The translations under genes and the position numbers were made by a program. A stretch of DNA of 45,521 nt from an uncultured Bacilli bacterium (GTDB lineage Bacteria > Bacillota_I > Bacilli_A > RF39 > UBA660), in NCBI GenBank assembly GCA_944358455.1, contig CALVRE010000042.1, forward strand, positions 64,299 to 109,819. Reading direction: 5' to 3'. Each line of letters begins with the position of its first letter. Within the stretch, counting starts at the first letter, position 1. Of the stretch, positions 1,153 to 7,923 are shown piece by piece. The notes under the pieces were generated by a model. It was given only the letters and a program-made list of their open reading frames with translations. It was not told where the DNA came from and made no database searches.

Positions 1153-2499
1153 TCATCGATGATATTTTTCCTCGATCGTACGTGCTACTTCAGAAAGACC
1201 TAAAGCATGAGATCCTTTTACTAAAATAATACAATCATGCCACTCATTTTCCCATATTTTTTGTATCATTTCTTCTTTTGTTTGAAAATAAGTTCCCATT
1301 AATACTTTATGTTTTAAATGTTCGAACTCATGACCGGTCATCCACACTTCACTATTTTTAATATGATTGATTTGCTTGATAAGTTCAGTATGGATTCGTT
1401 TACTATGACGACCCAGTTCCAATATATCACCAGCAATGATTAACTTGGGACGCTTATCCTCCTTTAATAAATGAAGAGCCGAACGATATGATTCTATACT
1501 AGCATTATAACTGTCATCAATTAAAGTAATACGATGATTTAATTCTTTGACTTGTAAACGATGGTCAATACTAGTGATTGTTGCGATGCGATGGATACAT
1601 TCTTCTATCGGAATATCAAAATTAAGACCAACCATGATGGCCATCGAAATCAAATGAGGATAGTGTTCTCCAGGGTACGGAAATTTCACGAGATATTTCT
1701 TTTTATAATAATGAAGCAAGAAAGACGTACCTTTACGATCGATTTCGATATCGCCAATACGCATTTCATTTTTATGTCTTCTACCACATTTGACACAACT
1801 GATATGGTCGGTATTCCGCAACTTTTTTAAAAAGTGATCATCTCCATTTACGATTAGTAAACCATTATCCATACCCCCCGTAATTTCCATTTTTGCCTTA
1901 AAAATATTTCGTTTGCTTCCTAAATTGCCAATATGAGAAGTGCCAATATTGGTAATCAGTGCGACATCCGGTTTTGCAATATGGGATAATTTACAAATTT
2001 CACCAACATGATTCATTCCAAGTTCTGTCACAATCACATCATATTCTCCATTTAATTTGAGTAGCGTCATAGGTAACCCAATATGATTATTTTGATTCCC
2101 TTCATTTTTTAAAATACGATAATCCGGTTCTAACACACAAGCAATTAATTCTTTTAACGTTGTCTTTCCTACACTTCCTGTTACCGCGATCAGAGGAATC
2201 TTATAACGATCTCGATAAGCAGCACCTAAAGATGCTAAAGCATCATAAGTGTTTTCGACTTGAATCAAATTCCAATCTTTTTTCTTTGGTATTTTTTCTG
2301 AAACAATCGCGACACTACAGCCCTTTTGAAATGCCTCTTCCACATAATCGTGACCATTAAAAGAAAGACCTTTTAGCGCAATAAAAACATTTCCCTTTTG
2401 GATTGTTCTTGTATCCGTACTGTAACCTGTTACTTTCACTTTCTTTTTAAAAGCGACTAATGTTCCATTTGTGATACGTGCTAAATCTTCTATCTTCAT
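1153..2499 (-). CDS. murF: UDP-N-acetylmuramoyl-tripeptide--D-alanyl-D-alanine ligase (MurF)
   Basis: Adds D-Ala-D-Ala to the UDP-MurNAc-tripeptide in the cytoplasmic phase of peptidoglycan synthesis. 448 residues, normal for the family. The Mur-ligase P-loop TGSVGKTT is at 107-114, followed by the NEGNQNNHIG and ELGMNHVGEI motifs of MurF and a C-terminal domain with DDSYNA. A longer frame begins at 2568, but the ATG at 2499 has a GGAGTG ribosome site seven bases upstream and matches the family's N terminus, so I chose it. A terminator just upstream separates it from the yneF-like gene. Confidence 0.95.
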   Translation of the reverse strand: MKIEDLARITNGTLVAFKKKVKVTGYSTDTRTIQKGNVFIALKGLSFNGHDYVEEAFQKGCSVAIVSEKIPKKKDWNLIQVENTYDALASLGAAYRDRYKIPLIAVTGSVGKTTLKELIACVLEPDYRILKNEGNQNNHIGLPMTLLKLNGEYDVIVTELGMNHVGEICKLSHIAKPDVALITNIGTSHIGNLGSKRNIFKAKMEITGGMDNGLLIVNGDDHFLKKLRNTDHISCVKCGRRHKNEMRIGDIEIDRKGTSFLLHYYKKKYLVKFPYPGEHYPHLISMAIMVGLNFDIPIEECIHRIATITSIDHRLQVKELNHRITLIDDSYNASIESYRSALHLLKEDKRPKLIIAGDILELGRHSKRIHTELIKQINHIKNSEVWMTGHEFEHLKHKVLMGTYFQTKEEMIQKIWENEWHDCIILVKGSHALGLSEVARTIEEKYHR

Positions 2500-2855: not shown

Positions 2856-3284
2856 TTATACCTGATTATATGCATATTTTCTCGTTCTAGACGTGATATC
2901 ATAAAGCCAAAAATAATCTTTATTTTCAAAATCACAGACAAATAAATAAGGACTATAAAAAGAAAGATTTAGAAAAACATTCGGTAAATTTTCTTTGGTA
3001 AGTAAGACGAGACACGAATAATTCAGTTCCAATAAATAAGTTTGATCATATTTATGATCGACAAAATAATAACGTTTCTTTTTTTCTACGTGATACTTTT
3101 TACTGAAATATTCTTGTAATTGTGATACATCAAAAGGATCACATATTTGATTATAGAGGGATAACCCTTCTGCATAACCCTTTGTCTCTCTTAATTTTTG
3201 TAACGATAGAAAAAGAGATGATTCCTTTCCATCATATGCCTCATAGCTAGAACGTCGCAAGTGAAAAACATAATATTTCCGCAT
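2856..3284 (-). CDS. sirA: Probable sporulation inhibitor of replication, SirA-like
   Basis: 142 residues, soluble, no signal peptide. In Bacillus, SirA binds DnaA and blocks new replication rounds at the onset of sporulation. The assignment rests on three things. The gene sits between tkt and yneF exactly as sirA (yneE) does in B. subtilis. The length is close to the ~148 residues there. The ends resemble SirA: an N-terminal KYYVFHLRR...Y.GKESSLF block and a C-terminal SPYLFVCDFENKDYFWL block, where SirA as I recall it has SPxxxxxDFxxKxYxWL. The middle is divergent and rich in Tyr/Lys. A Spo0A-type box lies upstream. No catalytic motif is seen; overall similarity is modest. Confidence 0.65.
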   Translation of the reverse strand: MRKYYVFHLRRSSYEAYDGKESSLFLSLQKLRETKGYAEGLSLYNQICDPFDVSQLQEYFSKKYHVEKKKRYYFVDHKYDQTYLLELNYSCLVLLTKENLPNVFLNLSFYSPYLFVCDFENKDYFWLYDITSRTRKYAYNQV

Positions 3285-3334: not shown

Positions 3335-3361
3335 AAAAGAAACTACAAAAATAGTTTCTTT
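3333..3361 (-). terminator. Intrinsic terminator overlapping the end of tkt
   Basis: Stem AAAGAAACTA/TAGTTTCTTT (3336-3345 with 3352-3361) and a T-tract on the minus strand. The TAG stop of tkt (3343-3345) is inside the stem. Confidence 0.8.
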
Positions 3362-5307
3362 ACTCTTTCTTCTAATGATTTATAATCGTAGTGATATTTC
3401 TTTAAAATTTGATCACGAGAACCACTTGCTCCAAAATGATCAATCGTTAGTAAGTAAGAAGAATTATAGACAAATTGGTGCCATCCAAATGATGAACCAG
3501 CTTCTATTACGACCGTTCTTATCCCTTTTGGTAATAGCGCGTCACGATACTCTTTTGGTTGTTCCAAAAACAATTCCATACAAGGCATACTGACTACTCG
3601 AAGATCGAGTTTTTCTCTTTCATATAACTTCGTAGCAATCCGCAAAGCGGTATGTACTTGATTTCCCGTCGCTATCAAAATACCATGTAAGTATTGATTC
3701 TCTTTACGAACAACATAAGCTCCCTTCGCTACTTCTTCACTACTAGTCGTTGCTAGTTGTTCTACTTCTACTTTCGAAAGAATCAATGCACTAGGTTTTT
3801 CTTTTTCTTTTAAAATATGGTTCCAACATCCTAATAACTCTTTTCCATCACAAGGACGATATACATTTAAATTAGGTTCACTACGTAACATAGCAAGTTG
3901 TTCTACTGGTTGATGAGTCGGCCCATCACTTCCAATCTCAATCGAATCATGAGATAAAAGATAAATTACCGGAAGTTTCATAAGAGATGACATACGAATC
4001 GCCGGTTTCAGATAATCAGAAAATGTTAAAAAGGTAGAACCAAACACTTGAAAATTAGTAAGAGCTAAACCATTTAAAATAGCTCCCATGGCATGTTCTC
4101 TTACTCCAAACCAAATATTCTTTCCTAAATAATTATCCTTTGTCAAATCATTCCCTCTGTCGATATAACTCTTAACAGAAGTCGATAAATCAGCACTTCC
4201 ACCAATAAAATAAGGAATTTCTCGAGAAATATGATTTAAAAAGGTTGCATTTGTCTTTCGGGTTGCTTCCTTCTCCTCCATCATAAAAGAAAAAGGCGTT
4301 TTTAATAAGTCAATTTCTTTCTTTTTTCCAAAAATAAAATCTAAATCTGACAAATCAGAATGTTCATTATGATAATCTTGATATCTTTTTGACCATTCTT
4401 CATAAGCAGGCTTTGTATGTTTTAACATTTCAGCGCGGAACATATTTTCTGTATTAGGTAAGGTTGTAAATGGTTCATGATCGATTCCCCACTTTCCTTT
4501 CAATTGATAAATATCTTCATCATCTAACACTTTACCATGAACTTCATGACTTCCCGCCAACTTCGAACCATTTCCAATAATCGTTTGTACTTCGATTAAA
4601 GTTGGTTTATCATTTTTCTTAGCTTTCGCAATCGCTCGATCAATCTCTGCTACATTTTCTCCATCTTTGACCAGTTCGGTATCCCATCCCATCGCTTCAA
4701 AACGTGCACGAACATTCTCTGTAAAGGTCATGTCGGTCGATCCATCTAAACTTGTTTTATTGGAATCATATAATACGATTAAATTATTTAACTTCCAAGT
4801 TCCAGCTAAACTTGCCGCTTCATAGCTGATTCCTTCCATTAAATCTCCATCACCACATAATACATATACATGATAATGAAAGAGTGATTCCCCTTTCGAA
4901 GTTACAAAACGATGTTCTAATATTTTTTCTCCTAGAGCCAGTCCTACAGCTGTCGCAATTCCTTGACCAAGAGGTCCTGTAGAAGCTTCTACTCCTGGTG
5001 TAACCCCTACTTCTGGATGCCCAGGAGTACGAGAATCAATTTGACGAAATTGCATCAAATCTTCTTTCGTTAGATAACCAGCCATGTAAAGTGTCGCATA
5101 TAAAATAGCCGAACCATGACCTGCAGACATGACAAAGCGATCACGATTTGGCCATTTAGGATCATTTACATTAATATTGATATGATGAGCATATAGACAA
5201 TATAGCATCGTAGCAGCATCCAACACGATACCCGAATGTCCATTTCCAGCCTTTTTAATCATATCGATTCCTAATGACTTCATATTATTTATTACTTGTT
5301 CTTGCAT
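3343..5307 (-). CDS. tkt: Transketolase
   Basis: Thiamine-diphosphate enzyme that moves two-carbon ketol units between sugar phosphates in the pentose phosphate pathway. 654 residues, full length. Visible are the N-terminal GNGHSG, SAGHGSAILYA, the ThDP-binding GDGDLMEGISYEAASLAG, GSADLSTS, the GVREHAMGAILNG block of the pyrimidine domain, and SHDSIEIGSDGPTHQPVEQ. It has a ribosome site (GAGGTGG) and a clean promoter, and is followed by a terminator, so it appears monocistronic. Confidence 0.97.
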   Translation of the reverse strand: MQEQVINNMKSLGIDMIKKAGNGHSGIVLDAATMLYCLYAHHININVNDPKWPNRDRFVMSAGHGSAILYATLYMAGYLTKEDLMQFRQIDSRTPGHPEVGVTPGVEASTGPLGQGIATAVGLALGEKILEHRFVTSKGESLFHYHVYVLCGDGDLMEGISYEAASLAGTWKLNNLIVLYDSNKTSLDGSTDMTFTENVRARFEAMGWDTELVKDGENVAEIDRAIAKAKKNDKPTLIEVQTIIGNGSKLAGSHEVHGKVLDDEDIYQLKGKWGIDHEPFTTLPNTENMFRAEMLKHTKPAYEEWSKRYQDYHNEHSDLSDLDFIFGKKKEIDLLKTPFSFMMEEKEATRKTNATFLNHISREIPYFIGGSADLSTSVKSYIDRGNDLTKDNYLGKNIWFGVREHAMGAILNGLALTNFQVFGSTFLTFSDYLKPAIRMSSLMKLPVIYLLSHDSIEIGSDGPTHQPVEQLAMLRSEPNLNVYRPCDGKELLGCWNHILKEKEKPSALILSKVEVEQLATTSSEEVAKGAYVVRKENQYLHGILIATGNQVHTALRIATKLYEREKLDLRVVSMPCMELFLEQPKEYRDALLPKGIRTVVIEAGSSFGWHQFVYNSSYLLTIDHFGASGSRDQILKKYHYDYKSLEERVKKLFL

Positions 5308-5365: not shown

Positions 5366-5512
5366 TTATTGCATATTCATGACAATCATTTCTCTATCAC
5401 TTTCCACTTTATTTTCCTCCATTTTTTTTGATGCATTGGCGTTAAAATAAGCAAATCCAATCACAAAAATTGCAAATCCAACCATAACTTTACTTTTTAA
5501 AATTTCTTTCAT
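5366..5512 (-). CDS. 48-residue single-span membrane protein under SOS control (YneA/SosA-position protein)
   Basis: The start ATG at 5512 is preceded by GGGAGGAAT, one of the strongest ribosome sites in the window. The product begins MKEILKSKVMVGFAIFVIGF, so it has a short basic N terminus, one hydrophobic helix (about 9-23), then a charged tail (KKMEENKVESDRE) ending MNMQ. It is divergent from lexA, and its promoter spacer is filled by a perfect LexA box. In Bacillus the same place is held by yneA (105 residues, LysM) and in Staphylococcus by sosA (77 residues); both are SOS-induced, single-span cell-division inhibitors. This protein lacks LysM and is shorter than both. A division-inhibitor role is inferred from position, topology and regulation, not from sequence similarity. 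Confidence 0.72.
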   Translation of the reverse strand: MKEILKSKVMVGFAIFVIGFAYFNANASKKMEENKVESDREMIVMNMQ

Positions 5513-5536
5513 ATTATTCCTCCCTTTGTTGATTTT

Positions 5537-5565
5537 ATCTTATCACGAACAATCGTTCGTGTCAA
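5537..5565 (-). promoter_or_regulatory. Promoter with LexA operator for the 48-codon gene
   Basis: Minus strand: consensus TTGACA (5560-5565), 17-base spacer, TAAGAT (5537-5542). The spacer holds CGAACAATCGTTCG (5546-5559), a perfect Gram-positive SOS box of the CGAAC-N4-GTTCG form. LexA bound there would cover the whole promoter. Confidence 0.88.
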
Positions 5566-5574
5566 TTAATTTTT

Positions 5575-5586
5575 GAACATTTGTTC
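5575..5586. promoter_or_regulatory. Second LexA box in the divergent region
   Basis: GAACATTTGTTC with a following G: intact GAAC-N4-GTTC half sites 16 bases from the first box. It lies upstream of both promoters and could assist cooperative LexA binding. Confidence 0.75.
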
Positions 5587-5668
5587 GTTTTTTACGTTTG
5601 AATTGTCAAAAAATAATTACTATTTCATTCTCTTTCTTATGATAATTTCCAATTTTTTTACCTTTTTG

Positions 5669-5708
5669 CGAACAATTGTTTGACTTTGCCATTAATATAT
5701 GGTAAACT
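5669..5708 (+). promoter_or_regulatory. lexA promoter with LexA operator
   Basis: TTGACT (5680-5685), 17-base spacer, TAAACT (5703-5708). A LexA box with one mismatch, CGAACAATTGTTTG (5669-5682), overlaps the -35 element, which fits autorepression of lexA with a slightly weaker site than the small gene has. Confidence 0.85.
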
Positions 5709-5742: not shown

Positions 5743-6360
5743 TTGGAAAAACTCACAAGAAAACAAGAAGAAATTATGAACTTTATAAAAGAATACATCG
5801 TATCACATGGATATCCACCTACTGTTCGTGAAATAGCGAAAGGAGTTGGAGTATCGAGCCCTGCTACCGTTCAAGCACATTTAAATAACTTGGAACATAA
5901 AGGAGTTATCAAAAAAGATGGAACCAAAAATCGTGCTATTGAATTATTAGTTGAAAATGAATTCGCTATTCAAGAGACAAATGTTGTAGAAGTACCACTT
6001 TTGGGAAAAATTACAGCTGGTAATCCCATCGAAGCGATCGAAAGACCAGATGAATACTTTTCTTTACCTGCTTATTTGATTCCTAATAACAAGGAAGTGT
6101 TTACTTTATTAGTAAGTGGAAACAGCATGATCAACGCTGGAATCTTCGATGGAGATATCGTAATCGTTGAAAAACAAAATACGGCACGTAACGGTGAAAT
6201 CGTCGTAGCAATGACAGATGAAAACGAAGTTACTTTAAAAACATTTTACAAAGAAGCTAATTATTTCCGTCTTCAACCAGAAAATGATACAATGGATCCC
6301 ATCATTTTAAATAATGTAACTATCTTAGGAAAAGCAATTGGATTATATCGTAAATTATAA
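5743..6360 (+). CDS. lexA: LexA SOS repressor
   Basis: Represses DNA-damage genes and cleaves itself when RecA is activated. 205 residues. Winged-helix N domain about 1-70, cleavage bond Ala92-Gly93 in GKITAGNP, catalytic Ser128 (SGNSM) and Lys166 (EVTLKTF). The start codon is TTG: it lies seven bases after AAGGAGGT (5728-5735) and yields the usual MEKLTRKQEE beginning, whereas the first in-frame ATG would cut into helix 1. All autoproteolysis residues are intact. Confidence 0.97.
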   Translation: MEKLTRKQEEIMNFIKEYIVSHGYPPTVREIAKGVGVSSPATVQAHLNNLEHKGVIKKDGTKNRAIELLVENEFAIQETNVVEVPLLGKITAGNPIEAIERPDEYFSLPAYLIPNNKEVFTLLVSGNSMINAGIFDGDIVIVEKQNTARNGEIVVAMTDENEVTLKTFYKEANYFRLQPENDTMDPIILNNVTILGKAIGLYRKL

Positions 6361-6699: not shown

Positions 6700-7923
6700 T
6701 TATTTCCCTATCTTTTTCGTTTTCTCAGATTGATTTTCTCCAAGCACTTGATCTATTTTTTCTTCCATCATACGATTTTTGATAGCATCTAATTCTTCTA
6801 TTTGGGCTAATAAATCGCGTTTCATTTCTAATAGATCGCGAATTTGACTTGCTAAAGTCGTTTCATCTAAACCAAGATTTTTCAATATGGTTAATTGCAC
6901 AGCAACCTTTTCGGATTCAGGTAAGGTACGTCCTGATGGTTCTAGTTTTTCTTGTGAAACAGTTAACATTTGAGCACCTAAAATACTACCTTTCTTATTA
7001 AATGTACAAGGTATATTTTCTGAATATTGATTTCGACGTTCCTTGGAAGTCATGGGAAGAACAATCGCACTATTAAGTGGATTGTTGATACGTTCATCAG
7101 AAGAAACAACAACGCATGGGTGTTTTCCTAACATGGTATTATCCCATCCTTGAAACGGATACCAATAGATTTGAAATTGTTTTACTTTAGGAAATTTAGG
7201 TTGCTCTAATATTGGTTCCGTAGTAGCTAAAGTTGGTACTTCTACTTCCTCATCTAATACTTCTTCAATAAATTGGTCAATCTCTTTTTTTAAAGCTTCG
7301 ATGTGTTCAAAATCTAGAATAACAAATTGATTAAAGTTACAAAAGCTACGGTATCGATATGCAAAGTGACGATCTTGTAAAAAGTCTGATAAATCTACCG
7401 TTTGTAGTCGAGAAATTTTCTTTTGATGTTCTTTATCTGTAAATAACTCATACTTTTTCATATAATCTTTATATTTTTCTTCTAAATTACGTCCATTGTT
7501 CGTTTGATAGAATCGTTCTGCGACACGAAGAACTTGTTTATTTAACTTTTGTTTTTCAAGTCGAAATGCTTCTATTTGAGTATTATATTTAGTAATAACC
7601 GTCTGACCTTCTAATGTATGTTTTTCGATTGAGAATGCTCCCATTTTTGTGTGTGTTGGAATAAAGTACATCGTTGCCTCTTTTCCATCTGGAAAAAGCG
7701 GTTCTTCGATCACAGATTCATGAAACTGAGTGGTCACGAAATCTTGAACGAACTCTGTCTCTACTTTGATCTTCTTTGAAGCATTGATTGTAATACTGTT
7801 AGACCACTTATAATACGTTGGAACAGAAATTCCTAAAGCTGCGGCAATATCTTCAGCTCTATATCCTTGTTTTTTTAATTCGACTAATTTTTCTAATGCC
7901 TCTTTTGTTTTTTTACTTTTCAT
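6700..7923 (-). CDS. HTH - PemK/MazF-like domain - coiled-coil fusion protein
   Basis: 407 residues. Order: helix-turn-helix resembling a resolvase/transposase-type module (about 5-42, AEDIAAALGISVPTYYKW), a Lys/Glu-rich helical region (110-225), a PemK/MazF-fold domain (about 248-352, with GKHPCVVVSSDERINN and SAIVLPMTS), and a coiled coil (357-395). PemK/MazF proteins are usually ~110-residue mRNA interferases paired with an antitoxin; here the domain sits inside a large protein with no small antitoxin gene beside it. The Arg normally found in the RPxVVVS strand is His269, while the Thr of the PxTS strand (Thr292) is kept. Ribonuclease activity is therefore uncertain; a DNA-binding or regulatory protein is an alternative. 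Confidence 0.7.
   Translation of the reverse strand: MKSKKTKEALEKLVELKKQGYRAEDIAAALGISVPTYYKWSNSITINASKKIKVETEFVQDFVTTQFHESVIEEPLFPDGKEATMYFIPTHTKMGAFSIEKHTLEGQTVITKYNTQIEAFRLEKQKLNKQVLRVAERFYQTNNGRNLEEKYKDYMKKYELFTDKEHQKKISRLQTVDLSDFLQDRHFAYRYRSFCNFNQFVILDFEHIEALKKEIDQFIEEVLDEEVEVPTLATTEPILEQPKFPKVKQFQIYWYPFQGWDNTMLGKHPCVVVSSDERINNPLNSAIVLPMTSKERRNQYSENIPCTFNKKGSILGAQMLTVSQEKLEPSGRTLPESEKVAVQLTILKNLGLDETTLASQIRDLLEMKRDLLAQIEELDAIKNRMMEEKIDQVLGENQSEKTKKIGK

Follow-up and report, generated by a model that had tools for sequence, protein, structure and literature searches.

Organization of the lexA region

The DNA upstream of lexA raises two questions: whether a frame of 48 codons, divergent from lexA, is a real gene, and whether its product could stop cell division during DNA damage. 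In the window, by which we mean the whole 45.5-kb stretch of DNA that was analyzed, the gene order is lexA-small gene-tkt-sirA-yneF. The lexA gene (5743-6360, plus strand) has a TTG start and encodes 205 amino acid residues with LexA_DNA_bind and Peptidase_S24 domains (TIGR00498, E 4.3e-69). On the minus strand, the small gene has tkt (3343-5307) behind it, an arrangement shared with Bacillus; tkt encodes a transketolase (Pfam Transketolase_N, E 1.5e-108) and is followed by a sirA-like gene (2856-3284; Pfam SirA, 29.8 bits with a cut-off of 26) and by a gene (2573-2800) which we take to be yneF-like, its translation resembling the YneF/UPF0154 type. The yneA neighborhood of Bacillus shows the order lexA-yneA-recombinase-DUF896-tkt, presumably with sirA and yneF behind tkt, and the window order resembles it.

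Two neighboring genes show features of their own. SirA of Bacillus inhibits replication during sporulation, and the SirA-like protein of the window (2856-3284, minus strand) is found in a 1.17-Mb gut genome which also encodes three FtsW/RodA/SpoVE-type proteins; these may be sporulation genes left over or put to a new use. Near lexA, the minus strand at 6700-7923 encodes a 407-residue protein with an N-terminal helix-turn-helix and a PemK/MazF-like domain (Pfam PemK_toxin, E 4e-11), which is an unusual combination.

The gap between lexA and tkt contains one convincing frame, the small gene (5366-5512 including the stop codon, minus strand), which starts with ATG and whose 48 codons encode a predicted small one-helix membrane protein, MKEILKSKVMVGFAIFVIGFAYFNANASKKMEENKVESDREMIVMNMQ. 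Direct reading of the same strand shows a ribosome binding site, GGGAGG (5519-5524), with similar sites in relatives, and a promoter made of the -10 element TAAGAT (5537-5542) and the -35 element TTGACA (5560-5565). The 17-bp spacer of this promoter is occupied by a perfect LexA box, CGAAC-N4-GTTCG (5546-5559; CGAACGATTGTTCG, 0 mismatches), that abuts the -35 element; the box and the junction TTGACA-CGAAC are conserved in relatives, and the -10 element is part of the same conserved composite. Two further boxes, with 1 mismatch each, lie between the small gene and lexA: the second (5574-5587) is upstream of the small-gene -35 element and is an extra box seen in the window's genus, and the third (5669-5682) overlaps the -35 element of the lexA promoter TTGACT-17-TAAACT (5680-5708, plus strand; TTGACT at 5680-5685 and TAAACT at 5703-5708). 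The initial annotation had described the promoter with a LexA box as spacer, the ribosome site, the two additional boxes and a place equivalent to that of yneA, and all four stand, the last with the frame divergent from lexA, in a tkt neighborhood and under a LexA operator. A terminator was looked for 3' of the small gene and none was found, therefore read-through into tkt is possible.

At no more than one mismatch, the 45.5-kb window contains three LexA boxes only, all of them in the 230-bp gap before lexA, while 0.74 would be expected by chance anywhere in this length. The composite TTGACA-CGAACN4GTTCG-N3-TANNAT was found with up to 3 mismatches in 65 of 86 loci, with nearly always the same spacing, and none of about 1800 shuffled upstream regions came within 4 mismatches of it. 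In the window genome, boxes of the same type precede recA by about 80 bp and recG by about 45 bp (names from translations). Genome-wide, one-mismatch boxes are no commoner than a reversed control pattern; the argument therefore depends on the perfect box, on where exactly it sits in the promoter and on how well it is conserved. At the level of sequence, the operator and promoter of the small gene are present and conserved, and we infer that the gene is repressed by LexA and induced in the SOS response. In a separate locus, L111 (G000:C4:33243-33256), a perfect LexA box lies about 83 bp before a long ribonucleotide reductase-like frame with an ATP-cone start, and SOS control of nucleotide supply is possible there.

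Conservation of the small gene beside lexA

A search for the same short frame beside lexA in related genomes had been proposed in the initial annotation as a test of its reading, and the outcome was strongly in its favor. Frames were counted when they had 40-60 codons, an ATG start, a ribosome site and an N-terminal hydrophobic helix, and were located within 350 bp upstream of lexA and divergent from it. Such a one-helix frame was found in 82 of 99 related lexA loci, a sample that may count a few genomes twice with no change to the picture, versus 9 of 1980 dinucleotide shuffles (0.45%) and 0/98, 1/94 and 0/94 control stretches taken from the other strand or downstream of lexA. The frame is absent from about 14 lexA loci. 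Protein lengths in relatives cluster at 42-51 residues, and 117-160 bp usually separate the ATG from lexA. At 230 bp the window's genus stands apart, its gap being about 100 bp larger than in most relatives and holding one extra LexA box.

A family profile built from 69 members, which matches the window protein with an E-value of 2.5e-12, was run against 117 family genomes irrespective of where lexA lies. Most genomes show a strong match, mostly one per genome; 19 of the 20 strong matches examined adjoin lexA, and 11 of these 19 are proteins outside the profile. The sole exception among the 20 is a second copy in genome G022, away from lexA and beside phage-like genes (L196, G022:C24:13000-16365, frame around 1948-2076, minus strand). 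This copy is flanked by a small helix-turn-helix-like frame with a weak phrog_2113 match and by a frame matching phrog_15768/16304; its comparison with viral collections gave no match, and a search for phage homologues of the small protein found none. The copy may represent a mobile element carrying its own division inhibitor.

Between the window and a sister species of the same genus, the small gene differs by 6 synonymous and 3 non-synonymous substitutions (dN/dS 0.083). Across 11 related pairs, dN/dS was 0.08-0.19 in 10 and 0.45 in the remaining one, and substitutions fall mostly in third positions. By this pattern of substitution and by its conservation, the small frame is a real gene.

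The gene behind the small gene is tkt in several relatives and polA, yneF, miaB, or a calcium-ATPase-like or DNA-glycosylase-like gene in others (names from translations), which indicates that the small gene stays paired with lexA even as its other neighbor varies. The Faecisoma lineage retains the small gene although a small helix-turn-helix-like frame has been inserted between it and the promoter. Upstream of lexA, loci L052, L053, L054, L056 and L063 show a 60-residue frame, MEYYTIKDIQLLTGYSRRK... (phrog_989, E 1e-5); as read in L052 and L063, it separates the small gene from the LexA-controlled promoter, forming a putative two-gene SOS operon. In family f11 (L123, L130 and L137), the protein encoded divergently from lexA, with LexA-like boxes, has one helix and 57 residues and is apparently a different one; it begins MFNKICLTIYSYRCLIGIYFF... 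in L130 and has a DUF896-type gene behind it in L123. Its presence suggests that the slot beside lexA is fast-evolving or refilled.

Protein sequence analysis

The hydropathy peak of the 48-residue protein starts at residue 9, and AlphaFold2 modeled one helix at residues 8-41 (mean pLDDT 78) with a loose tail, in agreement with the single membrane helix first proposed. The predicted topology is a basic N-terminal end inside, one helix, and about 20 residues outside, the orientation of the tail being deduced from the basic N-terminal end. Alignment of the family shows a lysine-rich N-terminal end and a helix of 17-20 residues, often with F/L-Y in its first half, followed by a positive juxtamembrane residue (R/K), the motif h-x-x-L/I/M-E/N/D, a variable stretch and the C-terminal ending I/V-x-h-N. 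The ending h-x-h-N, with 0-3 residues more, is present in 48 of 91 members versus 18 of 669 other C-terminal ends.

Searches of Pfam, NCBIfam and PDB found no significant relative of the small protein; matches to NprX, DUF5657 and a potassium-channel subunit were set aside as weak helix matches. The YneA model NF010723, on which three true YneA proteins score 89-98 bits with a cut-off of 60, matched neither the window protein nor any of 69 relatives, and HMMER and HHalign comparisons with the three YneA proteins gave no significant match to the small protein. Elsewhere in the window genome, the YneA model finds LysM-like stretches, mostly repeats in frames of 150-381 residues and none beside lexA. 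No LysM domain was matched in the 69 members, so the claim of a protein smaller than YneA and devoid of LysM holds at 48 residues. The small protein is not YneA, either by the model or by LysM. A YneA-like C-terminal end was dropped as evidence of homology, the motif fitting only one of three YneA tails. In a literature search lying mostly outside subscription papers, the small gene family was undescribed in this lineage.

Natural variants of 28-37 residues (L065, L073/L126, L090 and L070) keep the promoter or the LexA box and have nearly lost the tail. Their genomes still carry a CtpA-type protease, and a link between tail loss and loss of this protease was rejected, no such association being found. 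If the tail blocks FtsW, these variants should be inactive or SidA-like.

Predicted function

On all features that sequence can test, the small protein fits among the SOS division inhibitors encoded divergently from lexA. The promoter with its operator, the predicted topology, the size, the position and synteny, and the lack of LysM all agree with the minimal inhibitor that the initial annotation suggested, which is thereby supported, and the division block would follow by analogy from position, regulation and topology. We consider it probable that this lineage inhibits cell division in the SOS response by means of the small protein, a miniature without LysM whose action is like that of YneA and SosA. 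As long as the DNA is undamaged, LexA bound in the spacer between the -35 and -10 elements would shut the small-gene promoter, and DNA damage would lead through LexA self-cleavage to synthesis of the small protein. By analogy with known inhibitors, its helix would attach, within the membrane, to the septal wall polymerase FtsW, probably the target, and the juxtamembrane part, predicted to continue the helix, would block septal wall synthesis, so that division would halt during repair. The conserved hydrophobic C-terminal end would probably mark the protein for removal by a CtpA-type membrane protease after repair.

Candidate partners are widespread. SEDS proteins (FtsW/RodA family) are present in all 13 family genomes examined, with three in the window genome, and S41 proteases (CtpA-type) in 12 of the 13 and in 17 of 18 further genomes; none was found in the 92%-complete assembly of the window genome, though the sister species has one. 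Against a division inhibitor speak this missing protease, the lack of a significant YneA match, the four near-tailless relatives and the roughly 14 loci without the frame. Furthermore, about 20 residues of tail may not suffice, since YneA without LysM and SosA truncated to 47 residues or fewer are inactive; SidA, which inhibits with 29 residues, counters this doubt.

Modulating larger membrane proteins is a common role of small one-helix proteins, and the product could instead regulate another envelope or repair process in the SOS response, such as a membrane protease, a transporter or RecA/LexA turnover. This we consider unlikely, because the lexA-divergent, one-helix, outside-tail plan is that of YneA, ChiZ, DivS and SosA (PMC6851548). 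Slightly less likely still is an SOS-induced small membrane toxin or depolarizing peptide of the TisB/DinQ kind, which would lower the membrane potential and slow the cell with the divisome untouched. Small size, one helix and a LexA-controlled promoter agree with it, E. coli DinQ being an example (PMC3567139); however, the small gene has a fixed place beside lexA in yneA synteny and strong ribosome sites, no antisense partner stood out as the region was read, and its product has a conserved charged outer motif and C-terminal end that a pore peptide does not need. That the frame is untranslated or a decayed yneA remnant, as its shortness and the shortened tails of a few relatives might suggest, is highly improbable, being already contradicted by dN/dS values of 0.08-0.19, by conservation at 82 of 99 lexA loci versus 0.45% by chance, and by the conserved promoter, operator and ribosome sites.

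The small gene thus appears as an overlooked gene beside lexA in a large group of uncultured gut bacteria, with a strongly conserved putative DNA-damage switch. As a division inhibitor, it would give uncultured, genome-reduced gut Mycoplasmatota/Bacilli a DNA-damage division checkpoint outside the family libraries searched. We give even chances to the wider proposal of a so far unnamed group of SOS division inhibitors, spread across a bacterial family, that need no more than one helix and about 20 residues of tail to block the septal wall polymerase. If true, glycan binding mediated by LysM would be dispensable, and the group would define a very short outer segment that suffices to stop FtsW. 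Known inhibitors of this type differ, YneA needing LysM, SosA having none and SidA consisting of 29 residues. Versions of about 48 residues, very different in sequence on a fixed plan, offer a natural mutagenesis set for the minimal inhibitory part, and the variants of 28-37 residues bear on whether the helix alone suffices.

Comparison with known systems

YneA of Bacillus and Listeria resembles the small protein in its gene, which is divergent from lexA with a LexA-type box in the promoter and tkt downstream, and in its plan, with one N-terminal helix, the C-terminal end outside and a short hydrophobic C-terminus. It differs in size and domains: the three YneA proteins compared have 103-109 residues and a LysM domain needed for activity, whereas the small protein has 48 residues and none. 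The YneA helix binds TM7 of FtsW and localizes YneA there, LysM blocks wall synthesis, YneA without LysM fails to block division, the TM7 changes V204F and P206L in FtsW are described for YneA, and docking on this FtsW helix is also predicted for SosA and SidA (PMC13396833). CtpA cleaves YneA directly (PMC6051672).

By its published description, SosA of Staphylococcus is also lexA-divergent, with one helix, an outside C-terminal end, no LysM, and a conserved membrane-proximal segment and C-terminal end (PMC6851548), although it has 77 residues versus 48. SosA needs the membrane-proximal outer segment, the conserved segment after the helix being residues 37-45; versions truncated to 47 residues or fewer are inactive, and turnover is governed by the C-terminal end and CtpA (PMC6851548). 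SidA of Caulobacter, likened here by description, is very small, SOS-induced and located in the inner membrane, acts on FtsW and inhibits with 29 residues in total (PMC4211646); it differs in its alphaproteobacterial host. ChiZ and DivS of Actinobacteria are, by description, lexA-linked one-helix SOS division inhibitors (PMC6851548); ChiZ differs from the small protein in having a LysM domain, while DivS, like the small protein, is built without one (PMC6851548).
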